64,000 bases of DNA from Pseudomonadota bacterium (GTDB lineage Bacteria > Pseudomonadota > Gammaproteobacteria > Steroidobacterales > Steroidobacteraceae), in NCBI GenBank assembly GCA_025355105.1, contig JANYAE010000081.1:62001-126000 (forward strand), in the 5' to 3' direction. A model generated the notes under the pieces. The model saw nothing but the letters and a program-made list of their open reading frames with translations, had not been told where the DNA came from and made no database searches. The translations under genes were made by a program, and so were the position numbers. Below, piece after piece: positions 28,257 to 29,616 of this stretch; within the stretch, counting starts at the first letter, position 1; each line of letters begins with the position of its first letter.

Positions 28257-29435
28257 TCAGCCGGCGGCGAACAGGCTGCCGATGGTGTTGACGGCGCGGT
28301 CGGCCTCGGCCCGGTCGGGCACTGTCGCCTCGTCGTCGAAGCCGTAGTAGTCGCTGTCGCCGAGCGCCTGAAACACGAAGCCGTCGCGCCGCGGCACGAA
28401 GGCGACGTTTCGGTACACGAGGCCGTAGCCGACCTCGGCCTGCGGGATGACGCGAGCGAGCTGGCCGCGGACCGGCGTCAGCGAGTGGTCGCCGAACAGC
28501 GCGCGGGCGCCGTAGCCGGTGGCGTTGATGACGGTGCGCTGCCTGAGCCGGGCAAGCTCGGCAGGCGAGTGAAACTCGGCGACCTCGATCTGCCCGCCGT
28601 TCGCGAGGAAATCGCTCACCAGCATGCGCGAGTAGCCCGCGATGTTGAACATCAGCATCGAATGCCGGCGCAGCGTCCGGTTGCCGAATTCATGCAGGCC
28701 GGGACCGAAGTCCTCCGCAGCGGTTGACAGATCGGCGACGCGCCCGGACAGCTCGGCGAACCGGGGCCGGCCGTCGTCGGCGCGCGCGATCTCGCGTCGG
28801 CCCGGCGCGCCATCGCGGACGTAGTAGTTGTCGATGAACTCCACCGGCGTGCCCGGCAGCCCGAGCAGCGTCTGATAGGTCCGGTAGGACTGCCGCGTCA
28901 TGCGCTCCCAACGCTCCTGAAATGTCGGCGTCGCATGCTGCTCGAGGCAGATCCGCGAATCCGGGCTCCACACGCCGGTGGCCAGTGAGGAACGCACGTT
29001 CGGCGGCAGGTCCTTGGCGTAGATTACGACGCGCGCGCCGGCGCGCTGCAGGAGCAGCGCCGAGGTCACGCCGAGCGCACCGCAGCCGAGCACGGCGACC
29101 TCACGCCGTCCGGCCGCCATCGCCAGCTCCACCGCGAGCGCGCTTGAGCCCCACGACAGCGACCAGCCGCTGCCGCCATGGCCGTAGTTGTGGACGACGG
29201 TAGTCGTGTCCACCTGCTCCACTTCGATGCGCGGGCCCTGCGGCCGGAACGGGCGCGTGCAGACCGTGACGGCGGTGATCCGGTCCGGGCTGGCGCGCAG
29301 CCGCGGCAGGTTGAGCGGCGGGGCCGGCGGAGGGCGTCGGTTCGCGATGCCCACGCCGCAACCCTCGATGGCGGCGAGCAGCATGGCGGCCCCTGCCCCG
29401 GCGAGCAGCCGGCGGCGTCCGATCGGTTGCGGCAT
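28257..29435 (-). CDS. Tat-exported D-amino-acid-oxidase-like flavoprotein, circularly permuted order
   Basis: A 392-residue protein with a twin-arginine signal (IGRRRLLAGAGAAMLLAAI) followed by EGCG, which could also be a lipobox. Mature residues about 60-105 carry FRPQGPRIEVEQVD and VVHNYGHGGSGWSLSWG, which in D-amino-acid oxidases form the C-terminal end. The FAD Rossmann motif VAVLGCGALGVTSALLLQRA follows at about residues 112-135, then the substrate domain (GVWSPDSRICLEQHATPTFQ, EFIDNYYVRDG) and INATGYGARALFGDHSLTPV. It ends in VPRRDGFVFQALGDSDYYGF. The usual order is therefore rotated. Predicted to oxidise a D-amino acid or amine in the periplasm. It is divergent from the DUF2189 gene. 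Confidence 0.82.
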   Translation of the reverse strand: MPQPIGRRRLLAGAGAAMLLAAIEGCGVGIANRRPPPAPPLNLPRLRASPDRITAVTVCTRPFRPQGPRIEVEQVDTTTVVHNYGHGGSGWSLSWGSSALAVELAMAAGRREVAVLGCGALGVTSALLLQRAGARVVIYAKDLPPNVRSSLATGVWSPDSRICLEQHATPTFQERWERMTRQSYRTYQTLLGLPGTPVEFIDNYYVRDGAPGRREIARADDGRPRFAELSGRVADLSTAAEDFGPGLHEFGNRTLRRHSMLMFNIAGYSRMLVSDFLANGGQIEVAEFHSPAELARLRQRTVINATGYGARALFGDHSLTPVRGQLARVIPQAEVGYGLVYRNVAFVPRRDGFVFQALGDSDYYGFDDEATVPDRAEADRAVNTIGSLFAAG

Positions 29436-29616
29436 GGGAAAGCGCTCCGGGTGGTCGGCGACAGGCCGCTAGAGATACCCGAAATCCGCACCGAAAGTCA
29501 CCGCCGATTGGTCCCGACCTGCGCTGGTGGCGGGCCGAGGGCTGCGCTACGCTGCGCCGACCACTGCGCTGCGGCTGCCCCTGCGGGCCCGTGCGACTGA
29601 CGACCGGAGAAGCCGC

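Follow-up and report, generated by a model that had tools for sequence, protein, structure and literature searches.

The window analysed here, 64,000 nucleotides of contig JANYAE010000081.1 from a member of the Steroidobacteraceae, carries on its minus strand a gene that raises an unusual question: does it encode a relative of D-amino-acid oxidase (DAAO) whose chain begins where that of the known enzymes ends, and if so what might such an enzyme do? The open reading frame (ORF) at 28257–29435 is uninterrupted and encodes 392 residues. We consider the product to be very probably a naturally permuted relative of DAAO and D-aspartate oxidase (DASPO) that is exported in folded form by the twin-arginine translocation (Tat) pathway and probably faces the periplasm on a lipid anchor. 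It would most likely act there as an amino- or hydroxy-acid oxidoreductase dependent on flavin adenine dinucleotide (FAD). The gene and its parts are as follows.

28257–29435, minus strand: whole gene, permuted DAAO/DASPO-like FAD oxidoreductase of 392 residues (open frame, Pfam, rotation scoring)
29445–29448, minus strand: GGAG, likely ribosome-binding site (sequence)
29358–29435, minus strand: residues 1–26, twin-arginine signal ending in Cys26, possible lipoprotein anchor
29112–29279, minus strand: residues 53–108, strand-strand-strand-helix block, C-terminal in DAAO/DASPO (profile match)
29253–29255, minus strand: Arg61, equivalent of the carboxylate-binding Arg283 (DAAO)/Arg278 (DASPO) (alignment)
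29172–29192, minus strand: residues 82–88, HNYGHGG (sequence)
28260–29111, minus strand: residues 109–392, FAD-binding and substrate domains, first in DAAO/DASPO (structural model)
29070–29087, minus strand: residues 117–122, GCGALG, FAD Rossmann motif (sequence)

Chain order

In pig, human and yeast DAAO (PDB entries 1an9, 2du8 and 1c0k) the block with the RPxRP and HNYGHGG motifs is C-terminal and Tyr228 is present. The order of DAAO and DASPO, with the FAD motif first and RPxRP/HNYGHGG last, is reversed in the window protein. Its Tat signal is followed by a linker, the block containing TRPFRPQGPRIEVEQ and HNYGHGGSGWSLSWG, the Rossmann motif GCGALG and then the remainder of the FAD enzyme. 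TRPFRPQGPRIEVEQ occupies residues 60–74, ahead of HNYGHGG (82–88) and of GCGALG (117–122), which fits the GxGxxG pattern of FAD-binding proteins; these positions bear out the motif order given in the initial annotation. The secondary structure predicted for the block comprises strands at residues 53–63, 69–75 and 78–84 and a helix at 94–107.

The Pfam profile DAO (PF01266) matches the protein with 79.2 bits against a cut-off of 27.9, which places it in the superfamily, and does so in two swapped stretches, with profile positions 301–353 ahead of 2–298. A phmmer search of the PDB sequences returned the D-amino acid oxidase 7ct4 as best match (E = 1.6e-16), residues 58–108 of the query aligning with 325–375 of that chain and residues 110–328 with 23–241. 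The swapped stretches and this mapping exclude chance as the source of the motif order. Eight bacterial relatives of canonical order were also used to build a profile, against which every rotation of residues 50–392 was scored. The native order gave two matches, of 79.1 bits (profile 3–193) and 42.3 bits (profile 259–311 on residues 53–106). Rotation at 109/110 produced a single co-linear match of 130.7 bits spanning profile positions 3–311 of 314, and the lowest-scoring rotation reached 54.6 bits. A profile of seven of the eight canonical relatives is itself co-linear with pig DAAO and human DASPO (E values of 1e-59 to 1e-65).

The predicted structure of residues 109–391 has the DAAO fold. 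Residues 111–391 of the AlphaFold2 model superpose on residues 1–269 of pig DAAO and residues 109–390 on 2–263 of human DASPO, with TM-scores of 0.53–0.55 for the two enzymes in sequential alignment. Residues 53–108 would complete the fold, as judged from the confidence of the model and the sequence match. The initial annotation had the chain ending at the strand before the RPxxP segment. We correct the description on this point: the chain ends after the helix at 375–386, which comes before the RPxRP strand, and the latter (residues 53–63) lies at the new N-terminus.

The circular permutation proposed in that annotation is strongly supported by the Pfam and phmmer matches, the structural model and the rotation scoring, together with the conservation and the tree described below. 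Naturally occurring circular permutations have precedents in other proteins. In the present case the former C-terminal block, with the carboxylate-binding RPxRP and the HNYGHGG loop, would have become the new N-terminus, the former C-terminal helix would lead straight on to the first strand of the Rossmann fold, and the new termini would be located past the helix near pig residue 270.

Conservation and distribution

Relatives found with query P0001 occur in 19 of 196 genomes of the order to which the window belongs and in 20 of 398 genomes of the phylum, its own genome included in both counts. Among the same-genus genomes listed, again with its own, the gene is present in two of eight, and the distribution is therefore patchy. 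A profile scan of genome contigs with alignment A1 gave at least 558 related stretches; the order was examined in the best 80 of these, which come from Xanthomonas, Dyella, Sphingobium, Caulobacter, Bradyrhizobium, Gluconobacter, Acidobacteria, Opitutales and others. Seven plasmid records match P0001 (E up to 1e-3), five in the permuted and two (L111 and L112) in the canonical order. The Nonomuraea record NZ_LT559118.1 (L108) is filed as a plasmid, although at 11.85 Mb it is chromosome-sized. The annotated records that we examined name the gene merely 'FAD-dependent oxidoreductase'. In the annotation the Mesorhizobium copy (L134:3001-4064; L146, L147) appears as two FAD-dependent oxidoreductase genes that overlap, as though a frameshift at the FAD motif had split it, and the copy in genome G596 is likewise in two pieces.

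For conservation we took 123 sequences (the window, L010–L110 and L113–L133, with the canonical L111 and L112 omitted), dropped L066, which has no frame with the motif, and L083, where the contig starts inside the gene, and rotated and aligned the remaining 121; L011 and L063, and L095 and L118, are apparently the same gene twice. Arg61, the carboxylate-binding arginine of RPxRP, is identical in 121 of 121 permuted rows, as are His82, Tyr84, His86 and Gly119 of the FAD motif, and seven of the eight canonical rows have the equivalent arginine. The extraction of these rows sought the FAD motif after HNYGHGG and therefore serves as a check of conservation; order was tested blind by the two-stretch Pfam match, the phmmer search, the rotation scoring and a genome search with the canonical profile A3.

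In that search, with the five best candidates per genome scored, A3 matched 90 of the 398 Pseudomonadota genomes. All 20 carriers of the permuted gene were matched, each in at least two pieces, and they make up 20 of the 21 best genomes. Multi-piece matches were found in exactly these 20, the other 70 genomes having one match each. HNYGHGG was absent from the five single-match genomes of the 70 that we read (L167, L169, L170, L171 and L172). A single canonical query had matched none of the 398 genomes, in a search run without a positive control. Canonical forms do exist in the Pseudomonadota, as shown by a relative in Burkholderia glumae that has the canonical order and HNYAHGG. An intermediate with a duplicated block was sought among 155 motif-bearing frames of at least 200 residues at the fetched loci (overlaps counted twice), and none had two copies of the motif.

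Could the order be an artefact, with two fragments fused by misassembly or a gene in decay? The assembly is a draft of 142 contigs, yet relatives from many sequencing projects share the identical order, among them single-contig genomes and plasmid records filed as complete, and the gene has an open frame with conserved motif residues. The initial annotation had called for homologues with the same order; they are present in many genomes, and because of them misassembly or a pseudogene is ruled out, with next to no probability left to it. Membership of another DAO family, such as the glycine oxidase ThiO or the D-amino-acid dehydrogenase DadA, is very improbable. The NCBIfam models for DadA and ThiO do match over the FAD motif region, with 28.1 and 21.3 bits, but the respective cut-offs are 383 and 250.8 (TIGR02352 for ThiO), none of the 25 models listed out of 36 reached its cut-off, and the nearest structures by sequence and by fold are clearly DAAO and DASPO.

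Subgroups and export signal

The permuted proteins form three subgroups: A, which includes the window protein and mostly has CxRPFRxxGPR; B, mostly with sequences like GLRPYRPSGF; and C, mostly with sequences like GVRPYR. The labels come from a simple pattern, which assigns L032 and L082 to B, yet L082 groups with A on trees. One subgroup A gene lies in a metagenome bin titled Klebsiella pneumoniae (L086, CAMCRC010000026.1), a name that may be wrong.

The signal of the window protein consists of GRRRLL at residues 6–11, a hydrophobic stretch and Cys26; nine bases separate the end of the GGAG from the ATG. The Tat signal noted in the initial annotation is conserved: a simple pattern finds one in 115 of 121 rows (88 of 90 in A, 26 of 26 in B and one of five in C), and Arg7 and Arg8 are invariant in the 62 rows of alignment A2. 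The two subgroup A rows that lack it are L064, where the frame is cut by the contig start, and L123, in which a stop closely precedes the domain. A loose pattern scores 86 of 121 rows as having both the Tat signal and a cysteine at the lipobox position (62 of 90 in A, 24 of 26 in B). Cys26 is conserved in near relatives and may be a lipid anchor, but the residue at -2 is acidic in the window protein.

Permuted proteins of subgroup C from Nonomuraea (L108), Bradyrhizobium (L109) and Rhizobium (L110), together with L132 and L143, have only a short stretch without twin arginines ahead of the RPxRP block; the start codons of L108 and L143 were chosen within longer open frames. L108–L110 share the permutation, the arginine and HNYGHGG with the window protein and differ from it in having no signal and keeping the tyrosine discussed below. 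L133 and L144, also of subgroup C, bear Tat signals. Canonical-order DAO enzymes can also be exported. None of eight DAO matches read in the genome of the window (L001–L008 of 59) has a Tat signal before the FAD motif. This genome is rich in DAO-family genes, the 59 matches (E up to 0.001) including several in frames of 800 residues or more.

Active site and substrate

PMC8260693 describes the substrate alpha-carboxylate as bound by a tyrosine and an arginine, Tyr228 and Arg283 in DAAO and Tyr223 and Arg278 in DASPO. In the pig sequence Tyr224 and Tyr228 (numbering from the alignment) stand just ahead of Ile-Ile-Pro. In our MAFFT alignment, on which the assignment depends, the Tyr228 column is tyrosine in four of 90 rows of A, 22 of 26 of B, all five of C and six of eight canonical rows. 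Subgroup A mostly has serine (49 of 90) or asparagine (16 of 90) here, and the window protein has Ala345, so that the second carboxylate contact of DAAO and DASPO is missing from it. The Tyr224 position, four residues before, is occupied by tyrosine in the window protein (Tyr341) and in 64 of the 90 A rows. Since the Tyr228 equivalent is lost in subgroup A, a different acid substrate is probable: not a standard D-amino acid, but probably still an alpha-amino, N-substituted or alpha-hydroxy acid.

Judging by what is known of the Tat pathway and of the DAO superfamily, the enzyme most likely works as follows. FAD would be loaded in the cytoplasm before export, the folded enzyme would pass through Tat and Cys26 would probably be lipidated. 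Arg61 would hold the substrate carboxylate while a hydride is transferred from the alpha-carbon to FAD to give an imino or keto acid, and the reduced flavin would be reoxidized by O2 or by a periplasmic carrier.

Gene neighbourhood

Neighbours were surveyed at 80 loci less nine (the target is uncalled in eight, and L066 has no target ORF), and 115 of the 121 immediate neighbours longer than 130 residues were scanned with Pfam. Neither neighbour clustering nor the scan of these 115 flanking proteins revealed a general operon partner. The commonest families are HATPase_c (six), Beta-lactamase (serine hydrolases, four) and TonB receptors (four). The serine hydrolases probably correspond to the four neighbours in Dyella that share one cluster; of these, one (L038) was scanned by name. 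In Dyella japonica a gene for a beta-lactamase-family hydrolase comes next after the permuted gene. The genes flanking the target in the window belong to the HDOD, SPOR-domain, DUF2189, BON and Cons_hypoth698 families and suggest no operon.

A gene for a thiamine-diphosphate enzyme lies directly downstream of the signal-less permuted gene in Nonomuraea gerenzanensis (L108), Bradyrhizobium elkanii (L109), Rhizobium ruizarguesonis (L110) and Mesorhizobium onobrychidis (L134); it is annotated as such in L109 and L110 and recognized from its motifs in L108. An FAD-binding oxidoreductase gene precedes the permuted gene in L109 and L110. The pairing, found in two phyla, may represent a small mobile pathway.

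Two near relatives (L028:4591-5901 and L029:4348-5631) have a divergent neighbour, an M20 peptidase in L028 and a 75% identical gene in L029; no M20 peptidase gene is among the immediate neighbours of the window gene. On a plasmid of Kozakia baliensis (L114:446-5526) genes for a serine hydrolase, an alpha/beta hydrolase, a permuted oxidoreductase and a cytochrome c share one orientation, with a gene for a TonB receptor nearby.

Origin and electron acceptor

The initial annotation had suggested that permutation and export might be linked. We calculated a careful tree of 32 permuted and nine canonical proteins, with no eukaryotic DAAO, and a quick tree of 45 and eight. All 32 permuted proteins in the careful tree fall on one side of a branch with 100/100 support, the quick tree agrees, and a single permutation event would fit. 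The Tat label requires three changes on the careful tree; by our reading, a gain at the permuted root followed by two losses would be just as short a history as three separate gains. Signal-less permuted proteins exist, and permutation is therefore not dependent on export; the suggested link is not shown. Selection of the permutation for enabling Tat export, with a joint origin and the signal being lost later from certain cytoplasmic branches, seems to us rather unlikely. In its favour, the simple pattern finds the signal in all 25 rows of A and B in the careful tree, the Tat-bearing L144 and L133 are nested in subgroup C, with L144 branching first, and one gain on the permuted stem with two losses is as short as any history. 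Three independent gains are just as short, however, the support within subgroup C is moderate (95/74 and 83/23) and the permuted order is retained in proteins that have no signal. The enzyme might be a periplasmic dehydrogenase that feeds cytochrome c or quinone and not an oxidase producing H2O2, a possibility to be taken seriously even though we do not favour it. Acetic acid bacteria usually pass electrons from periplasmic oxidations to the respiratory chain, and in Kozakia baliensis the small cytochrome c gene starts five bases after the relative, in the run with the two hydrolases. Nevertheless, a scan for CxxCH ORFs (within 1–1.5 kb on the same strand, 79 loci) gave two matches, neither a clear cytochrome c, and no acceptor motif is known. 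A fuller scenario, in which a D-amino-acid oxidase was permuted and its new N-terminus placed behind a Tat signal in a single ancient event that founded a widespread, lipid-anchored periplasmic branch, and in which the window subgroup then lost the tyrosine, took a new acid substrate and passed its electrons to a periplasmic carrier instead of oxygen, is an unlikely one.

Several observations weigh against a permuted, exported and lipid-anchored DAAO relative, which is nonetheless the explanation that we prefer. With Ala345 in the window protein and so few tyrosines in subgroup A, DAAO activity itself is doubtful. The lipobox Ile-Glu-Gly-Cys is non-standard, with an unusual acidic residue at -2, and in 26 of the 90 A rows the pattern finds a Tat signal but no lipobox cysteine. 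A pathway has no support from conserved neighbours, the commonest Pfam family accounting for six of 115. The three-dimensional position of residues 53–108 is inferred from model confidence and the sequence match.

Relation to known enzymes

The window protein differs from human DASPO (PDB entry 6rkf) in chain order, in its Tat signal and, with its subgroup, in the lost equivalent of Tyr223. We know of no Tat signal in pig, human or yeast DAAO. Canonical-order bacterial DAAO-like proteins share its motifs, with the FAD motif first; the nearest unpermuted bacterial relatives that we found are from Streptomyces (L111, L137), Tsukamurella (L136), Burkholderia glumae (L173) and others. Our search of the open-licence literature found no description of a permuted or Tat-exported DAAO. 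According to PMC12502724, the proteins that Asaia bogorensis releases include one named 'D-amino acid oxidase'. The chemistry and fold of DAAO and DASPO are known, and the widespread, permuted and mostly exported branch appears to be undescribed.

DAAO is a textbook flavoenzyme, and here a natural permutant of it is kept in many proteobacteria and acidobacteria. Profile tools that assume co-linear domains split or under-score such proteins. The family offers a natural experiment on how new ends are accommodated by a two-domain FAD fold, on whether such ends ease the export of a cofactor-loaded enzyme and on the choice of substrate after loss of the tyrosine contact. It also suggests that D-amino-acid chemistry, or chemistry related to it, takes place at the periplasmic face of the cell.
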